This document shows, one piece after another, positions 10,227-25,943 of a stretch of 26,231 nt of DNA. The position numbers and the translations under genes are program-made. The stretch's first letter is position 1; each line of letters begins with the position of its first letter. The notes beneath the pieces were generated by a model. It saw only the letters and a list, made by a program, of their open reading frames with translations. It did no database searches and was not told the origin of the DNA. This stretch comes from a virus: positions 1-26,231 of the IMG/VR virus record IMGVR_UViG_3300032607_000891; one strand, 5' to 3'.

Positions 10227-10243
10227 AAAAGGGTTTTAAACCC
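10227..10243 (-). terminator. Weak hairpin with short T run before the primase-helicase
   Basis: Read leftward, GGGTTTAAAACCC (10231-10243) is a near-perfect palindrome followed by TTTT (10227-10230). It lies in the 91-nt gap between the nuclease and primase-helicase genes. The stem is short and partly AT, so this is at most a weak terminator or attenuator. It may lower expression of the helicase relative to upstream genes. Confidence 0.35.
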
Positions 10244-10287
10244 GAAAGAAACTATGTAAACTTGCGACTTAGTATTTCGCTGATCGG

Positions 10288-11070: not shown

Positions 11071-11095
11071 GATGTGTATGCCAACTTATACAAGT

Positions 11096-11434: not shown

Positions 11435-11963
11435 TGGTAGGAGTCCTGGGGCGGAGCCAGCTTACTTCGTAATCGATAACTGTACCTGTAAATCTCTGTT
11501 CTTGTTTTTTGAAGAAGAACCACCCTGATGTCACTGAGTCTTTTAGTTGTTTACCGTCCGCACGGAATGCTGGTCTAGGACTTAAAATCTTTAGATTTGC
11601 TAAGGATGCTGATTTAAGAAACGTTTCGCGGTTCCGTACAGGTTCAAGGAAAGTAATCCGATCGAGAATGCAAACACCTTGAGACGCAATGTCTAGACCG
11701 TATTCAATAATCCATGGAGTGTATTCTTTTAATCCTTGAGTCACAGCGATGACCCAATCGATCTTTCCCCTCTGAGTTTCCCACCAGGCTTTATCTTGTA
11801 TATTGTTCTCCAGTGTGTTTGTGACAATGTCTGTCAAACCAGACTCTTTTACTTGCTCTAGAAGTTGCCCGTTAAAGTCTGCGGGAAGGAGGATTGTGCC
11901 AGAGCATAATTTAGAATCAGCTACAGGACCAAAAATAAATCTTGGCACGTGGTAAAACGCCAT
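11427..11963 (-). CDS. Degenerate DNA adenine-methyltransferase-like protein
   Basis: The 178-aa product resembles the second half of phage N6-adenine methyltransferases. In those enzymes a D-W-V-[VIT]-N-P-P-F catalytic motif is followed by an alpha-helix, a LLLRxxFLEP strand-loop, then PRPSFxGDGKxDSV and a WFxW strand. Here I see KIDWVIAVTQGL (67-78), VCILDRITFLEPVRNR (97-112), LSPRPAFRADGK (127-138), DSVTSGWFFF (142-151). The family-defining NPPF/DPPY is absent, replaced by AVTQ at 73-76. The N-terminal SAM-binding motif is not evident either. The protein is therefore probably not catalytic; it may bind DNA, block host enzymes or be a remnant. This reading rests on remembered family patterns. 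A strong terminator lies just upstream, and TATAAA at 11980-11985 (leftward) might be its own -10. Confidence 0.6.
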   Translation of the reverse strand: MAFYHVPRFIFGPVADSKLCSGTILLPADFNGQLLEQVKESGLTDIVTNTLENNIQDKAWWETQRGKIDWVIAVTQGLKEYTPWIIEYGLDIASQGVCILDRITFLEPVRNRETFLKSASLANLKILSPRPAFRADGKQLKDSVTSGWFFFKKQEQRFTGTVIDYEVSWLRPRTPTNE

Positions 11964-11991
11964 AGACCGTCGATAACTTTTTATAGATGAG

Positions 11992-12017
11992 AAAAAAGCG
12001 CCCCCTTGCGAAGGCGC
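11992..12017 (-). terminator. Intrinsic terminator inside the leftward cluster
   Basis: Read leftward, GCGCC and GGCGC pair around a loop with TTCGCAAG (12017 to 11998), extended by possible T-A or G-T pairs, and six T residues follow directly (11997-11992). It sits in the 80-nt gap between the 277-aa gene upstream and the methyltransferase-like gene downstream. It should limit readthrough from the SSB-region genes into the nuclease and helicase genes. Confidence 0.8.
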
Positions 12018-12043
12018 GTCCCCATGTCCTTAAACAGTTTACG

Positions 12044-12877
12044 CTAGAAATCCAAACCAGCAGCTTTAAGTGCAGCTTTCTGTTCGTCGTTTAGTTCCTT
12101 TCCCTTTGAGGGTTTTGAACTAGGAACAGGCTCGGGTGTTTCTTCTTTGGTCTTCTTAGGAGCCTCGGCTGTTGGTGGCAGAGACGCTTGCTGGTGCTCA
12201 TAGGCACCCTCTAATCTCTTTGGATTTGCTTCCGCAAAGAGAGCTTTAATATCTGCATGGTCTTCTCCCAAAGGTAGTTCGACCAAATTAGAACCGGGGA
12301 TAGAAGAGCGAAGTGCAGCTGATACCAACTCTCCTCCACTAGTCTCAAGCCACGATGTGACATCGTGAATGAGTTTTTTCTCCTCATCGGTTTCTGTTGG
12401 GCGATCTTTGAACTCTAATGCGTTGTAGTTTATTTTCGGACCGTCGGCACCTGTAAAAGAATCCCTTTCGTTAAAGGATTTTTGTACAAACTTTGTAATC
12501 GTTATAACTTCACCTACATTTATACGGTTGTTATATAGAGTCTGGAAGTACGTGATAAAGTTTTTTTGGCTCGACTTGCCGCTAATAATACTCGTGCAAA
12601 CACACCGTGGAGGTAGTAAACGATGGTTAGGGGACACACCGATATAGCTAATTCGAATAAACTCTTCGTGCGACCGCATTCCGAGATTGCCGAAATAGGG
12701 CGTAAAACCAAGCAAGATAAACTCAATGGGTATGCCGTTGTCGTTCGTGTCAACAATGGCCGCCTCAGGATCACTGTCGGATTTCCAACGACGAGCCTGA
12801 AGATCAATACGTAGTGTGTGTGGCGGGATCTGACAAAGGATTTCATCAGCCGAAAATTTGCCTGCGATAAATACCAT
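12044..12877 (-). CDS. Hypothetical replication-region protein (277 aa)
   Basis: I do not recognise this family. The first 190 residues look folded, with strands such as EFIRISYIGVS and a cysteine pair (RCVCTSI). The C-terminal third (about 215-268) is rich in Pro, Glu and Lys and probably disordered (KKTKEETPEPVPSSKPSKGK). The chain ends in a helix and LDF (KAALKAAGLDF). The protein encoded just upstream, an SSB-like protein, also ends in a Ser/Ala-rich linker and LDF. A flexible tail ending in a hydrophobic tip is typical of single-strand DNA-binding proteins that recruit partners, so this may be a second ssDNA-binding or accessory protein. The 6-nt gap to the upstream gene indicates co-translation. 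An intrinsic terminator follows the gene. Confidence 0.65.
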   Translation of the reverse strand: MVFIAGKFSADEILCQIPPHTLRIDLQARRWKSDSDPEAAIVDTNDNGIPIEFILLGFTPYFGNLGMRSHEEFIRISYIGVSPNHRLLPPRCVCTSIISGKSSQKNFITYFQTLYNNRINVGEVITITKFVQKSFNERDSFTGADGPKINYNALEFKDRPTETDEEKKLIHDVTSWLETSGGELVSAALRSSIPGSNLVELPLGEDHADIKALFAEANPKRLEGAYEHQQASLPPTAEAPKKTKEETPEPVPSSKPSKGKELNDEQKAALKAAGLDF

Positions 12878-12883
12878 GATTAG

Positions 12884-13528
12884 TTAGAGAGAGAAGTCGA
12901 GAGAACCGAGAGCAGAAGGAGACACACGACCCTTTTCAGGATCAGCAGCCCGTGTGGGAGCGGCCTTTTGTGTGCGGGGCAGATAAAGAATTTTATCCAC
13001 GCCATAGTTTAGAAAAATTCGTTCGTCTTTTTCGGATGTGCTTATCCGTCCAACAGCAATCGTTGGGGTACCTGCGGCTAGATCTGCCAGCTGAGCTGAC
13101 AGCTCATTCCAACAAGAGATTTTCATCCAATTTGTTTCTTGGTTTTCGTCCTGCCAAGCTAAAGATCGGTTTGTGACGGTATTGTCACCAAGTTGATTTT
13201 CTTCGGCTTTTGGTCCCAAACCACCTGTAGCAATAAATAAATTAATCGCCAGTAGATCTTCCCAGTTGTCATTTCTGACAACCAGCATTGGTTGCATCTT
13301 AAGCAGACCATCGGGATCGGATTTTGTGGGTCCGATAGCAAGAAAGATTTCTTTTTCTTTTAGTTTACTTAGAAGTTTTCCCACATAATGATCAGATTTT
13401 TGACTTAATAATACTTTGGTTGGGATCTTTCTTTCAGTTGAGGGTAAAGCTTCAGCGTTTAATTCACAGGAGCCTTCTCGTTCAATTGATTCGTTTGTGA
13501 CTCGTAAGCCAAGAAGCAGGATGTTCAT
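12884..13528 (-). CDS. SSB-like single-stranded DNA-binding protein
   Basis: In this 214-aa product, residues about 88-185 match the order of an SSB OB-fold: DLLAINLFIATGGLGPKAE, then NRSLAWQ, ETNWMKISCWNELSAQLADL, GTPTIAVGRIST and a final VDKILYLPR strand. The ETNW...WNELAxxLADLxxGxxxxVxGR pattern is diagnostic. An N-terminal 85-residue part is not typical of SSB and contains KVLLSQKSDHYVGKLLSKLK. The tail ends ALGSLDFSL, reminiscent of the SSB tip that binds partners, though without the usual acidic run. It would coat single-stranded DNA at the fork. The start overlaps the previous stop by 4 nt (ATGA), and the next gene follows after 6 nt. Confidence 0.75.
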   Translation of the reverse strand: MNILLLGLRVTNESIEREGSCELNAEALPSTERKIPTKVLLSQKSDHYVGKLLSKLKEKEIFLAIGPTKSDPDGLLKMQPMLVVRNDNWEDLLAINLFIATGGLGPKAEENQLGDNTVTNRSLAWQDENQETNWMKISCWNELSAQLADLAAGTPTIAVGRISTSEKDERIFLNYGVDKILYLPRTQKAAPTRAADPEKGRVSPSALGSLDFSL

Positions 13529-14052
13529 TTTTTAAACAAGCGGTAGATCGAAGAGCGGTGGACTTTAAAAACCTTAGCAATCTCCTTTACGGGGACGCCT
13601 TGGCTTGCGAAGGCTAGCGCCAATCGCTTATCCGCGCTAGTGAGTTTAGAGGCTTTCATTGTTTTGTAAGTATTGTGGAAGGGATTGACGCAGTTTTTTC
13701 GCCTGCATTTTGGGAGAACGTAAAGATCTTTAGGAATGTCTAAGTAGCTTAGTACTAGTGGCCGCACGTAGTATCGCAGACCAAACGAATATATGACAGG
13801 CGTATTATTGCAATATGTTTCTTGCCATACAGCACAATCTTTGTGACTGAAGCTGCTGTAAGCAAGGTTTTTAAAGAACTCACTAAGTAAGGTAGATTTT
13901 ATTTGTTCGTACGTCAGTGTGAAAGCATCCGCTGTGAATGCTCGAGCTATATCTTTAGCTTGCGCACTTGCGTGGTTACTGTCGTTAGCTGTTAAATCAA
14001 GCCGTAATTCTTTTTTGTTCTTTTCTATTAGTAAGCAATATTTAATTGTCAC
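13525..14052 (-). CDS. Protein with degenerate HNH zinc motif and C-terminal helix-turn-helix
   Basis: The 175-aa product has LPKCRRKNCVNPFHNTYKTM (113-132), in which C116, C121 and H126 match the C-x4-C-x3-H part of phage HNH homing enzymes of the CxxxxCVNPxHL type. The upstream catalytic His block is weak. Residues 138-175 (LTSADKRLALAFASQGVPVK, then EIAKVFKVHRSSIYRLFKK) form a clear resolvase-type helix-turn-helix. This combination suggests a homing endonuclease or a DNA-binding derivative now used as a regulator. The residues 60-110 look folded but unassigned. It is coupled to the SSB-like gene (ATGA overlap), which argues against a recently arrived selfish gene. Confidence 0.7.
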   Translation of the reverse strand: MTIKYCLLIEKNKKELRLDLTANDSNHASAQAKDIARAFTADAFTLTYEQIKSTLLSEFFKNLAYSSFSHKDCAVWQETYCNNTPVIYSFGLRYYVRPLVLSYLDIPKDLYVLPKCRRKNCVNPFHNTYKTMKASKLTSADKRLALAFASQGVPVKEIAKVFKVHRSSIYRLFKK

Positions 14053-14067
14053 TGAAATGCGACTGTC

Positions 14068-15174
14068 TTAAACTCTCAGTTGATCGTAAAGACCACCACC
14101 ACCGGGTAGGTTTTGTAACCGTAGTGCTGATTGATTTTTATCTAAGAAATCTTTGATTTCTTTGTCGGCAAATCCTTGTCTCCGAGCATAATCGAGATCC
14201 TCTTGACCAAAGAAAGTAGCGTCCTGACCAAACTCGGTGGATATATTTCCTTTTGGACGAAGTTCTTCTCTGTCAGATTCTCTAAAAACTTGCGATTGAT
14301 AAGGATCTGTGAATTTTGGTTGAGCGCTGACTGATTGAGTAGCTGCAGCAGCCGGTTGGCTTGCTGTCGGGGTGCTTAGTTTCGCACTCAGTTGATCATA
14401 AAGACCACCACCACCTTTTACGTTTTGTTCCCGTAGAAGACCTGGGCTGGCGTCTAAAAAGGTTTTAATCTGTTGATCTGTGAACCCTTGTTTCCGAGCT
14501 TCGTCCAGATCTTGACCACCAAAATATTTCGGGTCTTGACCATATTGTGTAGATATAGTTTTAGTCGTAGGTTGCGTAAGATTTGCAACTTTTGCGGGGT
14601 CAGCCATTCGTACTAAACCATATCCGCTAGCCCCGCTGCCGTATAAACCTGCATTAACGTCCCGCTCAACGTCTGGATTGTTCAATGATTGATTAAGTTT
14701 TAAGTTGTCTATTATCCCCTGAGCCACGCTCAATCGTCCTGTGCCAAAAAACTGTTGATTTTTATTAAGATAAGTTTTAACGTCCTCGTCAGAGAACCCT
14801 GCGGCTTTGGCTGCTTCTAGATCCCTTGCACCAAATCCTGGGCCTCCTAAATTTCCTGCGGAGAAGAAATCGTAAGTTTTTTTTGCATCGGGAGTGGTCG
14901 GTGAGGTCGGTGAGGTTGGAGGGGCAGTGAATGCCTGTTGAGCCTGTGGGGTGAGAGAAAACTCTGTGGTCGTTGTAGGGGTTTTTGGTGTTTTATAAGC
15001 TAATACTCCTCCACGGCCTTTTGTTACAGCAGAAGTTTTAAAGCCAGGCGCAAACCCTTCGAATTGTTGATTTCCATCCTCATCCTCAGCAAAAAACGAC
15101 AACAGATCTAGACCTAGTGCCTGTCCTGCGCCACGTAAATAGTCTTGTGGGGCTTTAAATCTAGATTTGGTCAT
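14068..15174 (-). CDS. Repeat protein with three approximately 50-residue units
   Basis: This 368-aa product has an N-terminal 60 residues, a Thr/Pro-rich linker (62-95) and three related units at about 114-156, 211-262 and 315-366. The unit pattern is FGxxDLxxARxxGFxDxxIKxFLDxxxxxLRxQNxxGGGGLYDQL; units two and three are close and unit one is diverged. Between units are Ser/Ala/Gln-rich linkers. No membrane span or signal is present. I remember similar repeats in cyanophage virion or large hypothetical proteins, but cannot check. Its place in a replication gene cluster is unexpected if it is structural. It ends 15 nt before the HNH/HTH gene. Minus-strand TACTACTAAAG precedes the gene without an obvious promoter. 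Confidence 0.75.
   Translation of the reverse strand: MTKSRFKAPQDYLRGAGQALGLDLLSFFAEDEDGNQQFEGFAPGFKTSAVTKGRGGVLAYKTPKTPTTTTEFSLTPQAQQAFTAPPTSPTSPTTPDAKKTYDFFSAGNLGGPGFGARDLEAAKAAGFSDEDVKTYLNKNQQFFGTGRLSVAQGIIDNLKLNQSLNNPDVERDVNAGLYGSGASGYGLVRMADPAKVANLTQPTTKTISTQYGQDPKYFGGQDLDEARKQGFTDQQIKTFLDASPGLLREQNVKGGGGLYDQLSAKLSTPTASQPAAAATQSVSAQPKFTDPYQSQVFRESDREELRPKGNISTEFGQDATFFGQEDLDYARRQGFADKEIKDFLDKNQSALRLQNLPGGGGLYDQLRV
14075..14415. repeat. DNA-level direct repeats inside the repeat-protein gene
   Basis: Two 29-bp segments, 14075-14103 and 14387-14415, differ at one position (CTCAGTTGATC then G or A then TAAAGACC and a CCA run). They encode the GGGGLYDQL ends of protein units two and three. 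Flanking DNA is also similar, so the unit was duplicated recently enough to keep DNA identity. Such repeats could recombine and change unit number. Confidence 0.8.
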
Positions 15175-15203
15175 GCTTTCAGGAACTCTATCTTTAGTAG
15201 TAT

Positions 15204-15220
15204 AGTTTAAAAATTAAACT
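15204..15220. repeat. AT-rich perfect hairpin between two minus-strand genes
   Basis: AGTTTAA and TTAAACT form a perfect 7-bp stem with a 3-nt loop. The hairpin lies between the 77-aa gene and the repeat-protein gene. Read leftward it is not followed by a T run, so it is more likely an RNA-processing, stability or protein-binding site than a terminator. Confidence 0.4.
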
Positions 15221-15453
15221 TAATCCGGTGCTTCAAACGTCTTAAAGCCTGCAAATTGTTTTGCGGCACGTAGGTTACCCGTCAGGCGCGGTTCGTTTCG
15301 TGAGCTTTCTTGCTCTTCTTGTATCTGCGGTCCTGTCTTTGTCTTTCTTCTGTAAGTCTCGCGTAAGCCTGGGAAGTACTCCAAAAGTTTTGAAGCGTCC
15401 GTGGAATCATCGACTGCGACTCCAAAATAATCTCCGGCGTATCTAGTGGCCAT
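15220..15453 (-). CDS. Hypothetical protein (77 aa)
   Basis: The 77-residue product begins MATRYAGDYFGVAVDDSTDA and has a charged, Glu/Arg-rich centre (TGPQIQEEQESSRNEPRL) followed by LRAAKQFAGFKTFEAPD. It is soluble and probably partly disordered. I do not recognise it. The start sits directly after AT-rich sequence (AAAGTTTAATT then ATG) with no Shine-Dalgarno site. It precedes the repeat protein, with 45 nt between that hold the AT-rich hairpin. Confidence 0.6.
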   Translation of the reverse strand: MATRYAGDYFGVAVDDSTDASKLLEYFPGLRETYRRKTKTGPQIQEEQESSRNEPRLTGNLRAAKQFAGFKTFEAPD

Positions 15454-15472
15454 AATTAAACTTTTTTTAATT

Positions 15473-16027
15473 TTACTCGTTTTCTAAGAAAAAACGTCTT
15501 AAGTCAAACCCAGGGCCAATTAAATTCTTTAAAACTCTCATATTCAGTTTAGCTTCATCGTGGTCCCGGTATCGCTTAGCTTCGCTTTCAAACTTAGTGT
15601 ATGTAACAAGTTTCTGACTCTGTTTATCCAGACAAGTCTTTACAAACGTATCACCCTTAGTGATAATCCATACCTCTTGAAATTTTAAAAGTGGCATGTT
15701 TTCAGTTTCCCTAAGAGTGTGAAACTTACGAGAACAAACTACTTGGTTTTGAGACTTTTTACTAGTTACTTTTATGGGTTTTGTTATTGTTTGCAGTTTA
15801 TCTTTATCTTTTAGAGTTTTTTGAAGATTTCGTGCCTTATTTGCTGCCTGAAACGCTGTAGGAAACATTTCTGAAGTCAGCTGAATTTTATTGCTTAACT
15901 TTACGCAACCGTAAAAGCCACCTTCACTCCTCAACGTAAACACGAGTTTACTAGGGTTTGCCTCGTGGATAATTGAAGCAGCCCTGAGCAGTTTAGACAA
16001 ACTTAAAGTTGTTGTCCGATTTTCCAT
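15473..16027 (-). CDS. Hypothetical protein (184 aa)
   Basis: The product has 184 residues, is basic, and lacks membrane segments. A Lys-rich stretch (KARNLQKTLKDKDKLQ and KPIKVTSKKSQN) lies in the middle, with two strand-rich parts on either side (KLVFTLRSEGGFYGCVKLSN and LKFQEVWIITKGDTFVKTCL). The C-terminus (NLIGPGFDLRRFFLENE) is aromatic. I recognise no family. AAGG lies 5-8 nt before the ATG and may be a short ribosome binding site. The gene is 38 nt downstream of the SH3/KOW-like gene, in the same direction. Confidence 0.65.
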   Translation of the reverse strand: MENRTTTLSLSKLLRAASIIHEANPSKLVFTLRSEGGFYGCVKLSNKIQLTSEMFPTAFQAANKARNLQKTLKDKDKLQTITKPIKVTSKKSQNQVVCSRKFHTLRETENMPLLKFQEVWIITKGDTFVKTCLDKQSQKLVTYTKFESEAKRYRDHDEAKLNMRVLKNLIGPGFDLRRFFLENE

Positions 16028-16065
16028 AAAAGCCTTGGTAGTTTTTGTAAAGAGTAACCCAATGT

Positions 16066-16347
16066 TTATTTGTTGTCCAGTAGAGCAAGACGCATCTGTT
16101 CATGTCTTGAAGTCAGCTTTGAACCGTCCCAAATTACGTCTACGTAAATTCGCCTTGCCCCTTTTAAGTTTTGTATTACACCTACGGACGAAACAGTGCC
16201 TGAACGTGTGGCGCTCAGTATACGCAAAACTTGATTCTTAGATGCAGTCGAAATAGCTGGTCCTACACACAGTTGCCTCATCCTATTTATCTCTGTAACC
16301 CTGTCGCCTTCTTTAAATTTGAAATTTAACTCGCGAGGTGTACTCAT
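16066..16347 (-). CDS. SH3/KOW-like small protein coupled to DNA polymerase
   Basis: The start is set at ATG 16347 (93 aa) because it overlaps the polymerase stop as ATGA; an in-frame ATG at 16359 would lie inside the polymerase gene. The product contains FKEGDRVTEINRM, RSGTVSSVGVIQNLKG, ARRIYVDVIWDGS and EQMRLALL. This is the strand pattern of a KOW/SH3-like barrel: GDxV at the start, GxV in the middle and a VxWDGS strand near the end. Such small barrels bind RNA, DNA or protein. The tight coupling with the polymerase gene hints at a role in replication, but this is inference. Confidence 0.7.
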   Translation of the reverse strand: MSTPRELNFKFKEGDRVTEINRMRQLCVGPAISTASKNQVLRILSATRSGTVSSVGVIQNLKGARRIYVDVIWDGSKLTSRHEQMRLALLDNK

Positions 16348-18236
16348 TTCTCTGCCCATGTGTCTGCGATCGAAGCGTCAGCTTTTGAAGGAACAATTTT
16401 CAAGATAGTCTCGGCTGCGAGTTTCATTGAGTTTTCAAGGATTTCTTTATATTGGATGGCTTTGCTCTCCTTAACCTCGAGCACAATCTCATCGTGCACA
16501 CAGGCTACTAGTGCCGCATCTTCGTTTAGATACTTTCCTAATTCAGCTAACGAAAGTTTGAGTATATCCGCCCCAGCACCCTGAATCAGAGTATTTGCGC
16601 AAGCAGTCATGATGGCGTCGTCATACGAAAGAAGCCTTCGTCTACCTAATGGAGTGCGTACATAACACCAACCATCGGCTACCATGGCTGATCGCTCTCG
16701 GTGCCATTCACGCAAGCGTGGATAAGCTGTGTGAAAAGCTGTATGAGCGACTTTTGCGTCTGATAACGATATTACTTTCCCTGACTGCGCAGCATACGTT
16801 TTATATTTTCGATAGCCCATACCATATAACAAAGCGAAATTAAGTGTTTTTCCGTCTTGCCTTTGATGTTTCTTAACGTCTGCAGTAGGTATCCTGTAAA
16901 TTAAACTTGCTGTAACCGTATGTAAGTCCTGTTCGTTTTTAAAGGCTTCAATCATTTGAGGGATCTTAATTAGCTCTGCGCCTAACCTGAGTTCGATTTG
17001 AGAAAAGTCGCAAATGACTAACTTGAAGCCTGGTGTTGCCTTAAAACAACCCCGAAACTCGCTGCTTCTTGGTATCTGCTGCGCATTGATGGCAAATTCT
17101 GTCTTATCATTCCCTGCTGTTTCTTTCTTTGAGCCCGACGACGTAAACCGACCGCTATTAGCTCCATACTGATTATACCTGCTATGAATACGGTGAGTTA
17201 AAGGATTTATGTTGCCTATAACTTTTTCTATATGTTCTAGTTTAGTTTCTATCTTGACTCGCTTCCTATACATGTTTAAGATTACGTTATCACTGTCAAA
17301 TTCACTTAAGGCAACCTGCGAGAGCGTGGGCTTATCTGTGACTCCATTAATAGGCAGCTTAATAGCTAAAGCTTCGAAAAGACGTATGCACTGTGTGCCA
17401 GAGCCGGGGTTAAATTCTTTCTTTGGTTTCTTTCCGATTAAGAGTACTCCGTCGGGATCTCTCGGAAGTTTTAGATCAGAAGGCAGTGCGCTGTCAAGCG
17501 CCTCACAAAATTCTTTAGTTTTATCCTTTAGTTCTTTACTTATACTCAGCTGTAACTCTAGTAAATTTGTAACATCAACATAGAAACCTTTATGGCACAT
17601 CATCGCCACGGATCGTATACATTTTGATTCCAATGAGTAGATGTCAAGTAAAGATTCGTCGATTAGTTCTTTTAATTGACTAGCCGCCACCTGTGGCAGC
17701 AGATCAACGTCTATCGCTGCGTATTCAATTTGTTTTAAGCTAAGATCTGGCACTGTCCAATCTGATCTTTGTTCTTCTTTACTAAGATCAATGTCTAGTC
17801 GGCGTAGGACAACCGCTTTTAAACTGCATGAAACGTCTGCAAAATAAGGCTTCTTTGCCTGCGGACTGATTCGTTTTTCTTTAAATCCAGCTCTCAAGCA
17901 TCTCTCAGCAATGTAAGTATCAAATATTTTGTTTTTGTAATCAATACCTAACTTCAACAAAAATTGAAAATCAAAATTCATAGAGTGAGCCACGAGCATC
18001 TCGCAGTTCTCGATTAATTCTTTTAAACCGCTGTGATCTGGTATCTTATATAGATCAAAAACAAAAACAGTCCTGTCATCATTCTCTTCTGTTGAGCAGA
18101 GCTGGAGTAGTCTGACGTTCGCTATACGAGCATCTAGTCCTGTTGTTTCTGTATCAAGACAGAGTTTCTTAATGGGTCTCAACTTATCTAAGGCTTGTTC
18201 AAACTCAACCTGGGTCGTAATATAAAATAAATTCAT
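16344..18236 (-). CDS. Family A DNA polymerase with 3'-5' exonuclease domain
   Basis: This 630-aa polymerase replicates the phage genome. The N-terminal proofreading domain keeps all motifs: LCLDTETTGL (D28, E30), LVAHSMNFDF (D89) and YAAIDVD (Y172, D176). The polymerase domain has motif A LVICDFSQIELR (D410), motif B RQDGKTLNFALLYGMG (R459, K464, Y471) and motif C CVHDEIVLEV (H581, D582). An SGRFTSSG thumb/palm block is at 361-368. The 5' nuclease domain of Pol I is absent, which is usual for phages. The position equal to E. coli F762 is Phe (NFALLYG). The ATG at 18236 follows immediately after a terminator U tract and has no ribosome binding site. It is coupled (ATGA) to the SH3/KOW-like gene. 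Confidence 0.96.
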   Translation of the reverse strand: MNLFYITTQVEFEQALDKLRPIKKLCLDTETTGLDARIANVRLLQLCSTEENDDRTVFVFDLYKIPDHSGLKELIENCEMLVAHSMNFDFQFLLKLGIDYKNKIFDTYIAERCLRAGFKEKRISPQAKKPYFADVSCSLKAVVLRRLDIDLSKEEQRSDWTVPDLSLKQIEYAAIDVDLLPQVAASQLKELIDESLLDIYSLESKCIRSVAMMCHKGFYVDVTNLLELQLSISKELKDKTKEFCEALDSALPSDLKLPRDPDGVLLIGKKPKKEFNPGSGTQCIRLFEALAIKLPINGVTDKPTLSQVALSEFDSDNVILNMYRKRVKIETKLEHIEKVIGNINPLTHRIHSRYNQYGANSGRFTSSGSKKETAGNDKTEFAINAQQIPRSSEFRGCFKATPGFKLVICDFSQIELRLGAELIKIPQMIEAFKNEQDLHTVTASLIYRIPTADVKKHQRQDGKTLNFALLYGMGYRKYKTYAAQSGKVISLSDAKVAHTAFHTAYPRLREWHRERSAMVADGWCYVRTPLGRRRLLSYDDAIMTACANTLIQGAGADILKLSLAELGKYLNEDAALVACVHDEIVLEVKESKAIQYKEILENSMKLAAETILKIVPSKADASIADTWAEK

Positions 18237-18262
18237 AAAAAAAGGGCGCCGTTAAGACGCCC
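18237..18262 (-). terminator. Intrinsic terminator touching the DNA polymerase start codon
   Basis: Read leftward, GGGCGTC and GGCGCCC pair (18262-18256 with 18250-18244, one G-T pair) around a 5-nt loop. Seven T residues (18243-18237) follow and lead straight into the polymerase ATG at 18236. This is a good intrinsic terminator by structure. It leaves no room for a promoter or ribosome binding site between itself and the start codon, so polymerase translation requires readthrough, or the hairpin works as a regulatory switch. Confidence 0.8.
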
Positions 18263-18280
18263 ATATAAGTGAGCTAAGGT

Positions 18281-19087
18281 CTACGCAGTGTACATGTTAC
18301 GAGCACGGATTCTTTTGCTCCAGCATGTCGCGACAAAGTAGCTTATATCGCCCCAATGGTCAGCAACGGACAACCCAATCCCCGTCAGTTCTACGGCATA
18401 CACCGTACGGCTGAGAAGATCAGAGTTACCACTCGACTCTCCGTTCTTAGATCCAAACTCTACTGTTTTTTCCATCTTGACCATACCCCAGCTAGCCAGC
18501 AACGCTAAGCCATCGCGGAGAGCAATGTACATTGGCGCAGCGTGGTAACACTCGTTTCTTTCAACACCAGCAGACATTGACACAGGGCGGAAGTTACCGT
18601 TTTCTTCCTTAATAAAGCCTCGGAAACAATCTGAGTCTGCAGTCACGTCGCCCTTAAAGGCTAGAAAATTGACAGCTTCAACGGCTACTTGCCTGAGTGT
18701 TTTCTTCCCGCCATCTCTCAAAGATACGAGGAGCATAGCTGCGCCTAGACCTTTGATATGGTTTATCTTATTCAAGGCAGCGACAGCCTCAGCGGGATCA
18801 GTAAAGATCCTGTCGGGGACAATATCCGCAGTCCTTTGAATCTTAGTTGTGCGTTGCTTACGGGGCTTAGTAAGCCCTTCAATAGCGCACTTGGCGGCAA
18901 GAGAAGCCAATACTGGATTCTTTTTCTCCACGCTTAAGGAGAAGAGCTTCTTAGCGTCGACGTCTCTCAGATTGATGTGGTCAAGAATGTGTATCGTTAT
19001 TGCAGGATTGGCTTGAGCAGCCGAAAATAATGCATTGGCTTCACCCGCGTCAAGCGTGGTTTCACCGAGTTTGAAGGAGAGTTTCAT
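18281..19087 (-). CDS. Hypothetical protein (268 aa)
   Basis: The start is placed at ATG 19087 (MKLSFKLGETT); a TTG at 19105 would add six residues. I do not recognise the family. The N-terminal 65 residues are helical (GEANALFSAAQANPAITIHI). A basic linker follows (LTKPRKQRTTKIQR). The C-terminal two thirds look folded, with a possible winged-helix or ligand-binding region (LRDGGKKTLRQVAVEAVNFL, PMYIALRDGLALLASWGMV). There is no membrane span. It is 44 nt upstream of the polymerase, with the terminator hairpin between them. Its place between the AAA+/VWA cassette and the polymerase suggests a replication or regulation role, but nothing in the sequence proves it. Confidence 0.65.
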   Translation of the reverse strand: MKLSFKLGETTLDAGEANALFSAAQANPAITIHILDHINLRDVDAKKLFSLSVEKKNPVLASLAAKCAIEGLTKPRKQRTTKIQRTADIVPDRIFTDPAEAVAALNKINHIKGLGAAMLLVSLRDGGKKTLRQVAVEAVNFLAFKGDVTADSDCFRGFIKEENGNFRPVSMSAGVERNECYHAAPMYIALRDGLALLASWGMVKMEKTVEFGSKNGESSGNSDLLSRTVYAVELTGIGLSVADHWGDISYFVATCWSKRIRARNMYTA

Positions 19088-19180
19088 GAAAAGAATGAGG
19101 ACCAAGAGCAGTCAAACACTTGAGAGTTAAAGATGCAACGATTTTACAATAACTTAATGTTTCAATTTTTCCTCCGTTTC

Positions 19181-19417
19181 TTAATCTTTCCATTTAGAAG
19201 GGTCTATGGGGCTCCAATACCGTACTCCGTCTGAGATCATGTAACAGAATTCAAGCTCCAGTTGATCGTTTCTTCTTACCTCCCCTAATCGTGCTTCCTT
19301 TTCTATTGTTACTTCAGGATGATTAAAGTCAGCTATCTCAGGCGTAGTGTAGTATTTAATTATGTTCTGAATTACTTGTTGATCAATTTGCCTGTTATTT
19401 AATTGATTGTTTTTCAT
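19181..19417 (-). CDS. Hypothetical protein (78 aa) downstream of the VWA gene
   Basis: ATG 19417 is chosen over 19471 because it leaves a 10-nt gap after the VWA stop instead of a 44-nt overlap. The product is polar and Asn/Gln-rich at the start (MKNNQLNNRQIDQQVIQNII), then acidic, and ends with LELEFCYMISDGVRYWSPID and a short tail. No family is recognised. It follows the VWA gene closely and is likely co-translated. An AT-rich gap of 93 nt separates it from the 268-aa gene; I see no gene or clear signal in that gap apart from a GGAGG with no matching reading frame. Confidence 0.6.
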   Translation of the reverse strand: MKNNQLNNRQIDQQVIQNIIKYYTTPEIADFNHPEVTIEKEARLGEVRRNDQLELEFCYMISDGVRYWSPIDPSKWKD

Positions 19418-19427
19418 TTGTAGTAAC

Positions 19428-20975
19428 TCAACGAATAGACTTTTGAAACAACTCGACAGAGTCCGGATCATTATCTACGTCCACTAAGAACACTTCGTCG
19501 CTAAATCGATGTAGTACGTTTGCTTTTCTTCCTATGCAAAATGTATTCCATTGCATATTCATTTTGTCTTTGAATACTTCTAACCTACGTATGAATAGCT
19601 CAGGAATCTCAGACTGACCATCTGTAATCATTAAGACGTCAGTTTTAGGACTTAGCGAAGTTTGATTCAGCACGTGGCTGATTACAGAACTGAAAGAAGT
19701 ACCACCTTTCGTTGCCCAAGTCATGACAAAATTTAATAAGTTTTCATTAGACTTTCGGTCACCCTTTAGCACAATGCTTTCCTGGATAACCGCATCAAAT
19801 AAGTGTATTTGAAGTTCTCTTTTTTGCTCTAGACATTCTTCCGCAACGACGCAAGCAATAGCCTTACTCCAAAGCTCTGCTTCGCCTGACATAGAACCGC
19901 TAATATCTACGTACATAATTACTGGCCCGTAAGAAATCTCTTTTACTTTTGCTTCATAATCTTTAGTTAATAAAGTTTTTTGTGAGTACTTTAAAGCGAA
20001 TAACGTCCGCCCTATGTGGTCACCAGCTAATGCAAGTTCTATTGGGAAGATATTCTTTATGTCATCAGAGAACTTAGCGCCCACGATATCACTGTAATTG
20101 CTCTGTGTTTGCTTAGCTCGTTTTCTGTTATTCCAAGCTCTTCGTAACCCACCTATTTTATTAACTAACTGCTTTAGTTTTTTGTTATGTCTGAGCAACT
20201 TAGCTAGCTTTCGCTTAGCTTCTAAATCATTACTGTGCGCTCCTATACCCTTGTTGGTACCTGCTAGTGTTTCCATATCTTCGTTCAGTTCGCTTGCTTC
20301 CTCAAATGTTCTGTCTACAGCTGTAGCTACGGCTGGTTGCATTGATTGCCTAACCTCACTAAATGTTTTTTCTAACTGTTTTCCTAACTCTTTTCCGAGG
20401 CGCCTGAGCTCGGCAGCTTTAATTTCATCTCCTTCTTCTCTGGCTTCTAAGAATTTATCTCTTAGGTCTTGCAGTTGCTGATTACCTTCTGTTAGAGCGT
20501 GGGCGAATGCTTGATCTTGGTGTGCTTGTTGTTCGATAAGTTCACTAAGTTTATTAATTATATTTACTGAGTTGTTTCCGGCAGTAAACTGATTCCCGCA
20601 AGACATAAGCATAATATTTGGCCACATCGGAGCGCTACAGATATCGCTAAACAACCCAAACCAAAAAGCATTCTCTGGTTTGTAACCCGCAGGATAAGGT
20701 GAAGCTTGACCGTCTTGTTTTGTTTGAAAATAACTTTCAATGTCGTGCAAATCAACTAGTGGAGTGACAGCTCCACCGTTATAGAGGAAATCAAATAGTT
20801 CTTTGCCGAATCTAGATAACTGAGAGATGTTGTAGTACTCAGTTAAGTATCTAACTGTCGGTTGTGCATCTCGTATAAAATCGTCCCAAAGAAAGTCACA
20901 CAAGGCGGAGACTGATAGGACCAAAGGTTCGACGCTTGTTAGACGAATAAACTCTTGTTCTGTTTTTAAGTTCAC
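19428..20975 (-). CDS. ViaA-like von Willebrand factor A protein
   Basis: This 515-aa product is the partner of the upstream AAA+ ATPase. The VWA domain (about 350-500) has a complete metal-binding (MIDAS) set: YVDISGSMSG (D357, S359, S361), GGTSFSS (T426) and MITDGQSE (D452). Just before it, NIFPIELALAG (308-318), then KTLLTK and YGPVIMYVDISG match the order in E. coli ViaA (ELATLG...LLTY...GPFIVCVDTSGS). The N-terminal 350 residues hold a long helical, charged region (150-290) likely to form a coiled coil. VWA proteins of this type bind MoxR-like ATPases and clients in metal-dependent assembly. The start overlaps the ATPase stop by 4 nt (ATGA), so the two are made together. Confidence 0.88.
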   Translation of the reverse strand: MNLKTEQEFIRLTSVEPLVLSVSALCDFLWDDFIRDAQPTVRYLTEYYNISQLSRFGKELFDFLYNGGAVTPLVDLHDIESYFQTKQDGQASPYPAGYKPENAFWFGLFSDICSAPMWPNIMLMSCGNQFTAGNNSVNIINKLSELIEQQAHQDQAFAHALTEGNQQLQDLRDKFLEAREEGDEIKAAELRRLGKELGKQLEKTFSEVRQSMQPAVATAVDRTFEEASELNEDMETLAGTNKGIGAHSNDLEAKRKLAKLLRHNKKLKQLVNKIGGLRRAWNNRKRAKQTQSNYSDIVGAKFSDDIKNIFPIELALAGDHIGRTLFALKYSQKTLLTKDYEAKVKEISYGPVIMYVDISGSMSGEAELWSKAIACVVAEECLEQKRELQIHLFDAVIQESIVLKGDRKSNENLLNFVMTWATKGGTSFSSVISHVLNQTSLSPKTDVLMITDGQSEIPELFIRRLEVFKDKMNMQWNTFCIGRKANVLHRFSDEVFLVDVDNDPDSVELFQKSIR

Positions 20976-22156
20976 GCTGTTAACTCCGAGATAGATTTGG
21001 CAATTAGTTGTTTGTGTTGCTCTAAAGTTTGAATTGTTTTTGTAGCGTCTTGCCTAGTAGAAGCAGAGATACGATACTCGCTTGACTCCATAATGGAAGA
21101 TAGTTTTTGGTCTAGTATTAAAACGTCGTTGTGTGCTTTGCGAAGTTTACTTACTAGTTTATTGAGATCGCTTATTGCTTTACAGTCTTGCGCATTGATG
21201 CTATTAAATTCATTTATTAAACCACTCAACGCTCGCTTTATATCAGTGAGCATTCTTTCAGCCGTGGGCACAGCTTGCTGCAGCACTTCTTTAATTACAC
21301 TGATGTCGTCTACATTTTGATAAATAATGTGCACTAGGGACCTGTGTAAGTGATCAGCGTACACTGTGTCGTCACCTTGTACAATCGCCCAACCTTTTAT
21401 AAACTTTAGTATCTGAACACGTCGTCTATCGCTGATCGTTATTCCTCTTGACGCGAGTAGATCAAACACCTGAGAAAACTTATCTAAAAATTCGTCGGTT
21501 ATTTTTATTTCATTTACTGACTCTTGTAATTCTTCTAAATGTTTGTAGGTTAATCCGGACTTAACTACAGGACGCTTCTTTAATCCCAATGCCCATAAAT
21601 CTAGTAGACGGCGGGATGTAGGTTTCCTTAGAGGTTCTACTGTTGGTCTAAAAAGAAAGCGATCGCAGAATGCTTGCAGGGATTCTTCTTGTGGAAATGA
21701 ATTTGTGGCTGCAACAATTGACTGTATAGGCGTATGCATTATTTCTTTACCGTTGTTGAACGTCCGTTCATTTAAGATTGTGAGTAAAGAATTAAGTACA
21801 GCAGAGCTACCCCGAAATAGCTCATCTAGGAATGCAATATTTGCACTAGGCAAGTAACCCTCAACGTCTCTTGTATATTCGTCTTTAAGTAGCTTTGATA
21901 TTGCTACCGGGCCAAACAACTCTGAAGGATCTGTAGTCGGGGATAGTAAATAACCGAAGTACTTACTACCTTCGAATCCACCTGAAACAGCTCTTACTAA
22001 TTCAGACTTACCAGTACCAGGTAGGCCAAACAAGAACGTGTTCTGTTTTGTTATAACCGAGGCTAGCAAACCATCAATGACTTCTTCTCGTTCTAGAAAT
22101 GCAGTGTTAAGAGAGCCGCGAAAGTTCTGAAGAGTGGTGAATAGTGTGTCGTTCAT
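20972..22156 (-). CDS. RavA/MoxR-like AAA+ ATPase
   Basis: This 394-aa ATPase has Walker A FLFGLPGTGKSELV (G44-S51), Walker B IAFLDELFRGSS (D111, E112), sensor 1 AATNSFP (N152) and an arginine region CDRFLFR (R166, R170). The lines FGPVAISKLLKDEY and VEGYLPSANIAFLDELF are classic for the MoxR clade. SRGITISDRRRVQILKFIKG (about 237-256) matches the lid of RavA, where VSDRRW is typical. The C-terminal 120 residues are helical. MoxR ATPases work with VWA partners as chaperones for assembly of cofactor-containing or multimeric proteins. In E. coli, RavA works with ViaA. Genes on both sides overlap by 4 nt (22153-22156 and 20972-20975). Confidence 0.92.
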   Translation of the reverse strand: MNDTLFTTLQNFRGSLNTAFLEREEVIDGLLASVITKQNTFLFGLPGTGKSELVRAVSGGFEGSKYFGYLLSPTTDPSELFGPVAISKLLKDEYTRDVEGYLPSANIAFLDELFRGSSAVLNSLLTILNERTFNNGKEIMHTPIQSIVAATNSFPQEESLQAFCDRFLFRPTVEPLRKPTSRRLLDLWALGLKKRPVVKSGLTYKHLEELQESVNEIKITDEFLDKFSQVFDLLASRGITISDRRRVQILKFIKGWAIVQGDDTVYADHLHRSLVHIIYQNVDDISVIKEVLQQAVPTAERMLTDIKRALSGLINEFNSINAQDCKAISDLNKLVSKLRKAHNDVLILDQKLSSIMESSEYRISASTRQDATKTIQTLEQHKQLIAKSISELTA

Positions 22157-22392
22157 GATTGTGTTTGAGGAGTGTTTAATCCGTGGATAACAAAGGGCTT
22201 TGGTCTAGGGAGTGGAATCTGTTGCGTTGTAATCCAACACTTATGTGTGAGCAAGTGTTGGATAGAGAGTAATCTTTCGCAGGCATAGTCAACGTTTGTA
22301 AAGCTAACGGCCTCGAGTGGATCACTCGTATATTTTTCAATGTCTTGTAGAAACCCTTCGTCGGATGCAATTAAGTAAATAGTTCTCGTCAT
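22153..22392 (-). CDS. Small protein (79 aa) of the AAA+/VWA cassette
   Basis: The product is 79 residues, with a possible alpha/beta start (MTRTIYLIASDEGFLQDIEK) and a proline-rich end (QIPLPRPKPFVIHGLNTPQT). I recognise no family. Its ATG shares a base with the stop of the 406-aa gene (TAATG) and its stop overlaps the ATPase start (ATGA). It is therefore locked into the cassette, and its conservation with MoxR/VWA pairs in other phages would be worth checking. The proline-rich tail could be a docking peptide, but this is a guess. Confidence 0.65.
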   Translation of the reverse strand: MTRTIYLIASDEGFLQDIEKYTSDPLEAVSFTNVDYACERLLSIQHLLTHKCWITTQQIPLPRPKPFVIHGLNTPQTQS

Positions 22393-23612
22393 TAAAAATC
22401 TAACTCTTCTGCTGTGCTGGCAGTTAACGTACGTAATTCATCTAACTCCTCGGTCAAACTTATGTTAGTGGAGTGAATAAATTCACTTTGTTGATCAAAT
22501 AAATTTTGTAAGTGACGTGCACGTTGGTTGTAGACATCCTTCTCGAGTTCTATCTGACCATAAAGGTTATCTAATTGATCCTTAGACTCTGCCTCTCTAA
22601 TTTTTACAATCAAATCTTTATAAACTCCTGATAAAGACAGAGATTTCTTTAACAGATCAAGACCAGCGGAGGAGTCACGTGTGGCCACAATCCGCTCTAG
22701 TTCTCCCCTAATTTCAACCTTCAGTTCTGAGAATTTGTTATATGCTCTGTCTCTAGTTTTGGCGTCTGGCGCCTGTAAGTCAGTGCTCACCTCATTTAAT
22801 TTCTTTGTTAGCTCACATAAACTTTCAAACCCAGGACAATGAGCTGATATTAACTGCAGATTCTCCGCAGTCATTTGCCACGATCCTCGCCGTTTTAGTC
22901 CTCCAGTTTGTCGACCACCTATCTTGCTAGCAATACGCACATCTAGATCATCAAGTAATTCAGCGGCTTTCAAACAAGCGCGATCAGCCGCTCCCGAACG
23001 GGCAGCTTCTAATACTTCTGTAGTGTTAGAGACTGATGCCTCCCACATTGTTTTCGAGAACGGATGATCGTCCTTATTGTTTGCAGCATCTAAGAACACA
23101 GGATTTGGCCCGAGTACATATACGTTTATAGGATTCTCAAACTGTCGCTTTGTAGGAAACAGAGATAGGTATGCTTCCTTAGCCATGTTGTATGACACAG
23201 GATCTTCGTGTTGAAACAAAGGTTCTAAGAAACCCACAACTGTACTGGCCCACTTTTCATATTCCTGCAGCCATAACTCGTTTAGTAATTCATTAAAGTT
23301 TGCAGCGTTTTGTCTGATTAAGATAATGCGTTGCATTGCCTCCACAAAATAATCCTCGTGGAGAAAGTGAGTGTCTCCTTGGTGAATTGTGCAGTCGTCG
23401 TACAGCTTGCGCTGTTCAATGCGTAGATTACTTAGGAACTCCTTAAGTTTTCCAGATAAGTTGGGTCGTACCGAAACTGATTGTTGTTTTTCAAGAACTT
23501 CAATGACTGACTTTTGTAATCTGAGATCATTCAATCTGATCTGTGTGCTCTGACGAACACTGGCGCTGATTTCAACACGCAAGATGAAGATGTTTTTATC
23601 CATGGTGATCAC
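22392..23612 (-). CDS. Large helical protein of the AAA+/VWA cassette
   Basis: The frame opens with GTG at 23612, overlapping the previous stop as GTGA. An ATG nine bases later (23603) in an ATCACC context is an equally good start, giving 406 or 403 aa. The protein is mostly helical. It has an N-terminal strand (NIFILRVEISASV) and a mid-part with WLQEYEKWASTVVGFLEPLF. A likely folded region at 150-185 (FPTKRQFENPINVYVLGPNP) follows, then a long Leu/Glu/Lys-rich coiled coil to the acidic end EELDF. Size, start strand and position next to an AAA+ ATPase and VWA gene recall DUF3150-type proteins. Those accompany CobS/MoxR-like ATPases in phages, but I could not verify this. It would be a third component or client of the pair. 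Confidence 0.75.
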   Translation of the reverse strand: MITMDKNIFILRVEISASVRQSTQIRLNDLRLQKSVIEVLEKQQSVSVRPNLSGKLKEFLSNLRIEQRKLYDDCTIHQGDTHFLHEDYFVEAMQRIILIRQNAANFNELLNELWLQEYEKWASTVVGFLEPLFQHEDPVSYNMAKEAYLSLFPTKRQFENPINVYVLGPNPVFLDAANNKDDHPFSKTMWEASVSNTTEVLEAARSGAADRACLKAAELLDDLDVRIASKIGGRQTGGLKRRGSWQMTAENLQLISAHCPGFESLCELTKKLNEVSTDLQAPDAKTRDRAYNKFSELKVEIRGELERIVATRDSSAGLDLLKKSLSLSGVYKDLIVKIREAESKDQLDNLYGQIELEKDVYNQRARHLQNLFDQQSEFIHSTNISLTEELDELRTLTASTAEELDF

Positions 23613-24034
23613 TTGATTCGAGAGAATGCGAGGTTGATTTTGTCTGTAACGAAGTCAACTTTGAACGTGAGTTTAAGCTGCTCGAGTAGTTGCTTGCGTT
23701 CTAGCTTGGCAAGTTTTAGCTTCTGCTCTATCTGAGCAATCTTATCGTCTAGTTTTTCGAGTTTTGCGTGCGGTGTGGGGGACTTTGTAACCCGAACTAT
23801 AATGTTTGCGTTGTACTCTGGGAAACGAAAGAGTGACTCAGTGCCTTGAAGCAAGCTGAGATTTACACCTGAGCTCTCTGCCTTTACTACATCGTTTGTT
23901 AGGTTACTCCGCGCAGCGTCGTAAGACACGCCAAACGATTCGTTTAGATGAGATAGTGCTATGTCACACTCGTCATACAACTGAGCAGTGAGCCTACCTT
24001 GTCGTACAAGATTTTGTAGGGTGAGTTTTGTCAT
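23609..24034 (-). CDS. Coiled-coil protein opening the AAA+/VWA cassette
   Basis: This is the first gene after the strong promoter. Its 141-aa product begins MTKLTLQNLVRQGRLTAQLY, has a central strand region (SLLQGTESLFRFPEYNANII) and a regular coiled coil at 90-125 (KLEKLDDKIAQIEQKLKLAK, then LERKQLLEQLK). No family is recognised. The stop overlaps the GTG start of the next gene. The start ATG 24034 follows a C/A-rich leader (ACAAACCCCAACACAC) with no Shine-Dalgarno sequence, and a small GC hairpin lies further upstream in the 5' UTR. Confidence 0.7.
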   Translation of the reverse strand: MTKLTLQNLVRQGRLTAQLYDECDIALSHLNESFGVSYDAARSNLTNDVVKAESSGVNLSLLQGTESLFRFPEYNANIIVRVTKSPTPHAKLEKLDDKIAQIEQKLKLAKLERKQLLEQLKLTFKVDFVTDKINLAFSRIK

Positions 24035-24097
24035 AGGGTTCTGATGTGTGTTGGGGTTTGTGCACCACGTTAAGGGCCTGTGCCGCCCATGTAGAGC

Positions 24098-24126
24098 AAG
24101 ATAACATACTGGGCTTCTGCTGTCAA
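24098..24126 (-). promoter_or_regulatory. Near-consensus extended sigma-70 promoter for the leftward cluster
   Basis: Read leftward, TTGACA (24126-24121, perfect -35), a 17-nt spacer ending in TGT (an extended -10 TGn) and TATCTT (24103-24098) form a strong sigma-70 promoter. Transcription should start about 24091, giving a UTR of roughly 57 nt with a GGGC/GCCC hairpin and a C/A-rich stretch. It is the best promoter in the window and drives the AAA+/VWA cassette and, by readthrough, probably the replication genes. The host RNA polymerase could use it, so the cluster may be early. Confidence 0.85.
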
Positions 24127-24180
24127 CTATTGTGCTTGATATACTTTGGTTATCAATACAGTGTTAAGCACGTTCAATAA

Positions 24181-24206
24181 TTAAGAATAAGTAAACTATT
24201 TCTTAA
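24181..24206. promoter_or_regulatory. 26-bp dyad, candidate operator upstream of the main promoter
   Basis: TTAAGAA (24181-24187) and TTCTTAA (24200-24206) are perfect arms, with AGT and ACT matching inside, giving 20 of 26 symmetric positions. It lies 55 bp upstream of the -35 and 47 bp past the stop of the MarR-like gene, in a 219-nt gap (24035-24253) that holds no gene. AT-rich dyads of about this size are typical of MarR-type binding sites, so the neighbouring regulator may bind here to activate or repress the promoter. It has no T run and is not a terminator. Confidence 0.5.
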
Positions 24207-24253
24207 CCTAATTTTTGACATTCAATTTTCGTACTCTGTAACCTTTTATAATT

Positions 24254-24568
24254 TTATAGCCATGTCATTGCTTCCTCGTATAAATGTTTCCCTTCGTCAG
24301 TTACAACCAAGATGTTCATTCGCGAATCGTGCGGATGTCTTTCTCTTTTGATCAAGTTCATTCCTCGTTTATTCTTCTGAGTCTTGTGACTTAGTAGGCA
24401 ACAATTACGAGATATTGAGCTTGAAGACATATTTAGTTTGTCGGGCAAGTCACTCTGCAGAAGCCCATCTTCTGCCTGAGCTATGCTCAGGAACACTAAA
24501 AGAGTGTGACATGAGACTTCGCGATTGTTGAACTGAGCAAAAGATTTTAATGCGTTAATCAAATTCAT
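24254..24568 (-). CDS. MarR-like winged-helix regulator
   Basis: The 104-aa product has the MarR order: a helix (SCHTLLVFLSIAQAEDGLLQ), a helix-turn-helix with SDLPDKLNMSSSSISRNCCL (39-58), and a wing with GMNLIKRERHPHDSRMNILV (69-88) followed by VTDEGKHLYEEAM. The [LI]IxRxxxPxDxRxxxxxxTxxG signature of the wing is clear. The family usually has a dimerisation helix pair and is about 140 aa; this one is short and its dimer interface may be reduced. It sits immediately upstream of the dyad and strong promoter of the AAA+/VWA cluster, so it is the best candidate for their regulator. The start context is ACAACAC then ATG, with no Shine-Dalgarno site. Confidence 0.8.
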   Translation of the reverse strand: MNLINALKSFAQFNNREVSCHTLLVFLSIAQAEDGLLQSDLPDKLNMSSSSISRNCCLLSHKTQKNKRGMNLIKRERHPHDSRMNILVVTDEGKHLYEEAMTWL

Positions 24569-24596
24569 GTGTTGTCAGATGCAGGGATGCGTAACA

Positions 24597-24779
24597 TCAA
24601 TCTATGTAGTCCGTTTCGAAGATAAACATAGTATCTAATTCGTGCCAGATGGCAGTTTCAATACTTGAGAATAGTGACTCGTCATTTGGAATCGTGCTGT
24701 GCTTAAATGCACGAGTGTATCCATTACGAATACCGGTATCTATTGCGTTTTCAAGCACAACACGAGATCTGATCTTCAT
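24597..24779 (-). CDS. Small hypothetical protein, paralogue of the gene at 1961-2131
   Basis: This 60-aa product begins MKIRSRVVLENAIDTGIRNG and continues YTRAFKHSTIPNDESLF, which aligns with the 56-aa plus-strand product at 1961 (shared AI, G, GYxRA, KH, P and E positions). The shared pattern is a helix with a conserved G-x-x-x-G-Y-x-R-A core, then a KH...P turn and an acidic C-terminal helix. It lies 28 nt upstream of the MarR-like gene. Function is unknown; having two copies in one phage suggests a general role such as protein binding. Confidence 0.7.
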   Translation of the reverse strand: MKIRSRVVLENAIDTGIRNGYTRAFKHSTIPNDESLFSSIETAIWHELDTMFIFETDYID

Positions 24780-24844
24780 CTAATTACAGCGTGGGACACG
24801 TAAAGTTTAGCTGCTTTCCACAGGATGAGATAACTTCAGTTTGC

Positions 24845-25033
24845 TCATGTGCGGAGTTCTTGGTGAAAAGGTGTTGTTGGGCCGTAATCGTTCATTAATT
24901 CTGGAAAAGCCAGTAATAAACGAAGTTTGTTAGCTGGATCGGCCTGTAATCCCGAAGCACCAATCAATTTAAAGAAACTACCGCCATATTCTGCAGCTGC
25001 GGCAAAAGTGTAGTGAATGTCAGATTTAGTCAT
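24845..25033 (-). CDS. Small hypothetical protein (62 aa)
   Basis: ATG 25033 is preferred because it overlaps the upstream 38-aa gene by 8 nt; an upstream TTG at 25090 is less likely. The product begins MTKSDIHYTFAAAAEYGGSF and continues FKLIGASGLQADPANKLRLL with LAFPELMNDYGP. It is probably a small, largely helical protein. The YGGSFFKLIGASGLQADPxN segment with ADxxN and a LLLAFPEL tail is consistent with many short phage proteins, but I recognise no family. In the 65-nt gap downstream a 13-codon frame with an ATGA junction exists (see rejected items). Confidence 0.55.
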   Translation of the reverse strand: MTKSDIHYTFAAAAEYGGSFFKLIGASGLQADPANKLRLLLAFPELMNDYGPTTPFHQELRT

Positions 25034-25142
25034 GGTAAGCGTGTGGGATGGGGTTTGCATAAGGTGTTTGTTGTGTTCCAAACTCTGCAACCGTAAGTGC
25101 AGTAGTTGTGAACACTATGAGCAAGGCAATGAAGTTGGCCAT
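25026..25142 (-). CDS. Micropeptide with a single hydrophobic segment (38 aa)
   Basis: A 38-codon frame from ATG 25142 to TAA 25026 begins MANFIALLIVFTTTALTVAE and ends QTPYANPIPHAYHD. The first 19 residues form a good membrane or signal segment, and the remainder is Pro/His/Tyr-rich. It starts 2 nt after the stop of the 83-aa gene and overlaps the next gene's start by 8 nt, which is a strong argument for translation in this dense cluster. Phages often place tiny membrane peptides in early regions to act on the host envelope. That role is inferred. Confidence 0.55.
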   Translation of the reverse strand: MANFIALLIVFTTTALTVAEFGTQQTPYANPIPHAYHD

Positions 25143-25144
25143 AG

Positions 25145-25396: not shown

Positions 25397-25440
25397 TGGT
25401 TTGATTTAGATAGGTTTGTGTGTGTGCCCCATGAGGGCGC

Positions 25441-25662: not shown

Positions 25663-25717
25663 GGTGATTAGGTTGAGAAGGTTGTTGATCCGCGTGGTAA
25701 GTATGCGCGGCCCACTG

Positions 25718-25930: not shown

Positions 25931-25943
25931 TAGGTGAATCCAA

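Follow-up and report, generated by a model that had tools for sequence, protein, structure and literature searches.

A conserved terminator-like hairpin at the start codon of the DNA polymerase gene in a group of uncultured phages

In a stretch of viral DNA of 26,231 nucleotides (IMG/VR record IMGVR_UViG_3300032607_000891, the whole of which is here called the window), the start codon of a DNA polymerase gene follows directly on the U tract of a terminator-like hairpin, T1. Judged from the sequences of the window and its relatives, T1 is a real terminator-like element which is conserved and specific to one gene. The explanation that we prefer, at a probability of roughly 0.6, is that T1 terminates the transcription unit upstream of it, and that the polymerase mRNA is readthrough RNA, arising mostly by passive leakage and translated from a start that lacks a Shine-Dalgarno (SD) sequence. 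Most simply, the junction would then be a leaky boundary between transcription units, at which the U tract has been free to fuse with a start codon that has no SD sequence. The abutment at this one gene is kept across a diverse phage family and is not the accident of a single genome.

The hairpin and the genes on either side of it

The features that bear on the argument are collected in Table 1.

Table 1. Positions of the polymerase junction and of the early-operon features in the window
Feature	Positions	Strand	Description
Early-operon promoter candidate	24126-24098	minus	TTGACA-17-TATCTT
Conserved structured leader	24088-24062	minus	GGGCGGCACAGGCCC..AACGTGGTGC; lies close behind early promoter; may form an H-type pseudoknot
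p141	24034-23609	minus	First gene behind early promoter; function unknown
p274	18281-19105	minus	274-aa upstream gene; function unknown; annotated gene start uncertain
T1 hairpin	18262-18244	minus	GGGCGTC-TTAAC-GGCGCCC; 7 pairs, 6 G-C, loop 5
T7 tract of T1	18243-18237	minus	Last T is the base before ATG 18236
DNA polymerase	16344-18236 (read 18236-16344)	minus	Family A with 3'-5' exonuclease domain, 630 aa; PF01612, PF00476
T2, second conserved terminator	12017-11998	minus	3' of 277-aa gene

An earlier note on this DNA had described a 7-bp stem and seven T ending one base 5' of the polymerase ATG, with no space for a promoter in between, and both statements are confirmed from the letters, the distance from T1 to the ATG in the window being 0 nt. 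The 41-nt T1 element has a predicted folding energy of -13.3 kcal/mol, compared to -5.5 +/- 1.9 kcal/mol for shuffled versions (z -4.0, with none of 200 as good). T1 has the G+C-rich hairpin of an intrinsic (Rho-independent) terminator, at -12.1 to -13.3 kcal/mol, and in the window the U tract follows directly after the stem, whereas this tract is weak in some relatives; the terminator score, computed with a formula of the d'Aubenton-Carafa type, is 37.1. In a pattern scan of positions 8000-26231, which as a whole gave no more sites than chance would (19 compared to 14.9 +/- 4.0 expected), T1 is among the top two terminator-like sites by strength, and a stricter scan of the window yields two co-directional intergenic terminators, T1 and T2.

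Several observations support the assignment of the polymerase start codon (18236-18234). An ATG stands at this position in all 48 loci compared, and over codons 2-18 the mean share of the majority base is 0.60, 0.78 and 0.51 at codon positions 1, 2 and 3, the second position being the most conserved and the third the least. The Pfam match to the exonuclease domain begins at residue 5, and the loop of T1 holds a stop codon in the polymerase frame, so that the open reading frame cannot be extended upstream past the loop. ATG 18236 is, on the evidence of these features, well supported as the start. In one contig (G015, locus L017) the polymerase copy is in two pieces with internal stops, which may be a sequencing error.

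On the other side of the junction, the stop codon of p274 lies 18 nt 5' of the T1 hairpin, and across contigs the upstream stop lies about 8-29 nt before the hairpin, as it would before a 3' terminator. The anatomy of T1, its place 18 nt past this stop codon and its conservation all point to T1 as the 3' intrinsic terminator of the unit that ends with p274. The protein p274 matches no family in Pfam, PHROGs or NCBIfam. The idea that the upstream gene is swapped in relatives was rejected, since a p274 homologue is present in 10 of 11 other contigs (28-74% identity) and the one contig that does not have it, G011, begins inside the polymerase gene. No phage record was matched by positions 10000-26231 in a megablast search. 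The early operon also encodes, at 19428-22156 on the minus strand, a MoxR-like AAA ATPase (PF20030, bpMoxR) beside a protein with a weak vWA match, an arrangement kept across the clade.

Conservation of the hairpin and its specificity to the polymerase junction

Relatives with 58-100% polymerase identity were gathered by a protein search of IMG/VR and a profile search. The resulting 83 rows, some of them near-identical, comprise 78 of the 80 search loci (two were dropped because the contig end was too near) and five others. In 73 of the 83 rows the scan called a hairpin with three or more T behind it, and the end of the T run lies 0-8 nt from the ATG in 52 of these and 9-35 nt in the other 21; the earlier note had proposed asking whether the spacing is kept in related phages, and for the most part it is. 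Of the ten uncalled rows, two extend just 15 or 27 nt upstream, and in the remaining eight a G+C-rich hairpin is visible by eye, with a T tract that is poor or displaced. A G+C-rich hairpin is therefore found 5' of the polymerase ATG in nearly every readable locus.

After the removal of near-identical rows, 59 loci remain, 55 of which have a predicted terminator score above 0. The distance from stem end to ATG is 7-42 nt, in most loci 7-16 nt. Scores below 0 occur in L140, L153, L165 and L166, in which the hairpin is kept and the U tract has decayed, and scores of merely 4.7-6.3 are found in L121, L122 and L124, which likewise retain the hairpin. Decay of the U tract with retention of the hairpin in several lineages is not predicted by pure termination and counts against it. 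A weak or lost U tract beside a kept hairpin is also seen in L154, which termination alone does not explain.

Because the hairpins were found by their pairing, the only fair test of covariation is provided by rows that align directly. In the nearly gap-free subset (10 rows, 9 of them distinct), two of the seven pairs are changed on both sides, in three rows each, and pairing is present in 63 of 63 cells (100%), compared to 28.6-71.4% for slid controls. Since the stems differ between relatives and the changes are compensatory, it is the RNA hairpin that has been kept and not its sequence.

The specificity of the arrangement is apparent from a survey of 1024 open reading frames of about 100 aa or more in 22 contigs, in which every candidate start was examined. 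A terminator-like hairpin ends within 16 nt of a candidate start in just 20 of the 1024 genes, and 17 of these 20 are the polymerase, out of 21 polymerases whose start is present. The four that fall outside this distance or pattern are those of G012 (42 nt), G027 (28 nt), and G022 and G026 (both about 25 nt, with a poor U tract). The three remaining matches are 133-aa open reading frames behind T2 in G014 and G027 and a helix-turn-helix (HTH) gene in G027. At 36135-36164 of G014 and 38548-38577 of G027, T2 abuts the start of the 133-aa frame as T1 does that of the polymerase. Strong co-directional intergenic terminators are few per contig, and T2, after the 277-aa gene, recurs as well.

In more distant relatives the arrangement was not found. 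No terminator was detected in the 120 nt before the start in any of 63 more distant polymerase loci (L018-L080, about 32-35% identity), and in the nearest named phages, PA-SR01 and Pam2 (28-29% identical), the terminator is absent and the polymerase gene overlaps the preceding gene by 4 nt; the joining of terminator and ATG is therefore confined to the nearer clade. The polymerase clade of L018-L079 (32-35% identity) has a different conserved leader, which in many members ends in ...GCCCTACCAGGC directly before the ATG and which contains a small hairpin without a U tract.

Transcription and translation of the polymerase gene

In none of 18 contigs did a search that covered the sigma70 types detect a sigma70-like site matching at least 10/12 in the 882 nt that precede the polymerase. 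In 13 of the 18, a site of this quality is located 57-93 nt before p141, which in those contigs places it about 5.7-6.3 kb 5' of the polymerase, and a promoter-like site stands just 5' of p274 in G009 and G010 (by score) and in G014, G021 and G023 (by eye). RNA polymerase that starts from these candidate sites before p141 or p274 must pass T1, which supports readthrough, whether passive or regulated, and since no promoter of the gene's own would fit behind T1, the polymerase mRNA would come from this passage. On this evidence the DNA polymerase is probably made only from RNA running past a stop signal. The phage would by this means lower or postpone expression of the polymerase and of the genes that directly follow it, compared with the genes upstream. 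Before the gene for a 368-aa protein, the motif TATACT (15199-15204, minus strand) is kept in G003, G005 and G006, with the similar TTTATACTTATTA at that place in G007 and G008; it is a possible promoter and, if it is one, would end the stretch that depends on T1 readthrough.

Translation of the readthrough RNA would start without an SD sequence on the short U/A-rich stretch that runs from the hairpin to the AUG. The earlier note was right that no ribosome binding site fits before the polymerase ATG, but this does not set the gene apart: an SD-like 4-mer precedes 20% of 25 genes in the window and 6-20% of the genes in 11 other contigs, and predicted anti-SD pairing is just slightly above that of shuffled sequences. 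As SD-like motifs are rare throughout, the polymerase gene resembles most of the others in lacking one, and the hairpin and U tract could come to abut the ATG because an SD spacer is not needed in this phage group. Among named polymerases the nearest are those of Pseudanabaena phages, and the bacterial contig that matches best comes from Myxacorys, a cyanobacterium; these matches make a cyanobacterial host likely. SD-independent translation is described in PMC3121790 as commonest in cyanobacteria and plastids, and in cyanobacteria it is associated with weakly structured RNA 5' of the start, according to PMC6847405. The predicted openness of the AUG is 0.53 over 48 polymerase starts, compared to 0.46 in 324 other starts (p 0.03). 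The window's own polymerase AUG is predicted to lie inside a weak A-U stem, which is not ideal for SD-less initiation.

The main rival to passive leakage is regulated processive antitermination, an explanation that we regard as possible, if unlikely, in which RNA polymerase from the early promoter is made terminator-resistant by a put-like leader or an early protein, so that only resistant polymerase passes T1 and T2, and T1 gates the replication genes as delayed-early genes. The two terminators do occupy constant positions in the early operon from contig to contig, and a leaky terminator before an essential gene without a fallback promoter is risky, which favours antitermination. At the head of the operon, moreover, a promoter of consensus type is directly followed by the structured leader, a 27-nt element with the consensus RGGYGGCACMGRCCY..AACGYGGYGC that is present in 13 of the 18 contigs with p141. 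Exact matches to the leader pattern in IMG/VR adjoin p141 relatives in 39 of 56 cases (by tblastn) and are unrelated in 14; in three further matches (L335, L341, L362) the retrieved sequence breaks off, and one of the three shows a p141-like start. Stem 1 of the leader covaries, two of its pairs being changed on both sides among 22 distinct sequences. According to PMC9378689, HK022 putL likewise lies just downstream of PL, and put still acts on terminators 10 kb or more from it. In the putative pseudoknot, however, the second helix does not covary: no pair is changed on both sides, and two pairs are mismatched in 9 and 4 of the 22 sequences. The pattern searches themselves fixed much of the second-helix sequence. 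G009, G010 and G023, which belong to one subclade, keep T1 and T2 in the absence of the leader, and transcripts from the promoter-like site before p274 would not carry it. The leader may control p141 instead of passage through T1, and known antiterminator families, those of N and Q included, were not found among the early proteins scanned, such proteins being hard to detect by sequence.

Nothing in the window reaches the Rfam gathering score (two weak matches in 23950-24260 fall far below it), and comparison of the leader with named phages gave one weak match (26 of 86 bases, E 0.2). A small open reading frame in the leader (ATGGGCGGCACC...) was rejected as a candidate, because a stop codon interrupts it in the window and its ATG is missing from G014, G016 and G021. 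The more particular proposal, that the 27-nt pseudoknot-like leader itself renders host RNA polymerase terminator-resistant, with T1 at the ATG as the gate of a new RNA-based antitermination, is distinctly unlikely, and the link between leader and T1 is offered as a hypothesis. Readthrough by what is probably, for the most part, passive leakage of the terminator is favoured over the on/off antitermination device as the simpler explanation, although sequence cannot separate the two. That the leakage has been tuned is not supported by predicted strength, T1 scoring lower than T2 in 10 of 20 contigs and higher in the other 10. The hairpin might instead act mainly after transcription, as structure at the 5' end of the polymerase mRNA or as a protector of the 3' end of the upstream mRNA, affecting stability or restraining translation, with termination secondary. 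This is very unlikely: the retention of the hairpin in the seven loci that score below 0 or at 4.7-6.3, the usual 7-16 nt between stem end and AUG and the greater pairing of positions -30 to -8 (0.36 unpaired at polymerase starts, compared to 0.49 at 324 others) are what it would lead one to expect, but nearly all of the 59 loci still score as terminators, the full range of spacings leaves no fixed geometry relative to the ribosome, and the stems differ so widely between lineages that no specific RNA-binding motif is kept. Least probable is that the polymerase has a transcript of its own, with little or no leader, whose start lies within the hairpin or beside it. An SD-less start could sit directly at a 5' end, and no other promoter is close by; against this, no -10-like element common to the lineages was found by eye at the needed place, and the motif TAAACT, which by eye had seemed a recurrent promoter motif before terminators, is not enriched (20 compared to 13.1 expected in 154 intergenic regions, z 1.8). 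A transcript start within the hairpin, which the earlier note had named as a finding that would overturn its reading, has no sigma70-like support.

Known systems and the meaning of the arrangement

The closest parallels are found in phage T7, whose genes 11 and 12 depend for their expression entirely on readthrough of T-phi (PMC5592923). As with T-phi, a terminator here follows a gene, and no promoter of the sigma70 types lies between it and the next genes, whose expression by readthrough is probable in the present case. The systems differ in that T7 gene 11 starts 18 nt past the annotated terminator position, compared to 0 nt here, and in that T-phi acts on a phage RNA polymerase, whereas none was recognised among those of the window's proteins that were scanned. 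The gene downstream of T1 encodes a DNA polymerase. The early terminator TE of T7 similarly marks a boundary between early and later genes, gene 1.4 starting 20 nt past the annotated TE, but the later genes of T7 have phage promoters, and none was found before the polymerase here.

Terminators are located inside the early operon of lambda, before the replication genes, where the N/nut system operates, and the placement of T1 and T2 resembles this. HK022 put offers a likeness in its promoter-proximal structured leader and in the terminators downstream in the operon, an arrangement seen here in 13 of 18 contigs; put is, however, about 70 nt long with two stem-loops (PMC9378689), while the present leader, at about 27 nt, forms at best a small pseudoknot and is not present in every member in which the terminators must be passed. 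Among titles and abstract openings retrieved on start-codon-abutting terminators, cyanophage readthrough and early-operon pseudoknots, none describes the T1 arrangement.

The junction thus provides a compact system in which leaky readthrough can be tested against antitermination, and in which SD-less initiation can be studied right behind a hairpin. If the leader does act on RNA polymerase, it would add to HK022 put another antitermination system made of RNA alone, and a leader-gated T1 would couple the onset of genome replication to transcription that has been antiterminated. On the preferred reading, as on its main rival, the expression of replication genes in these uncultured phages would have been made dependent on passing a stop signal.
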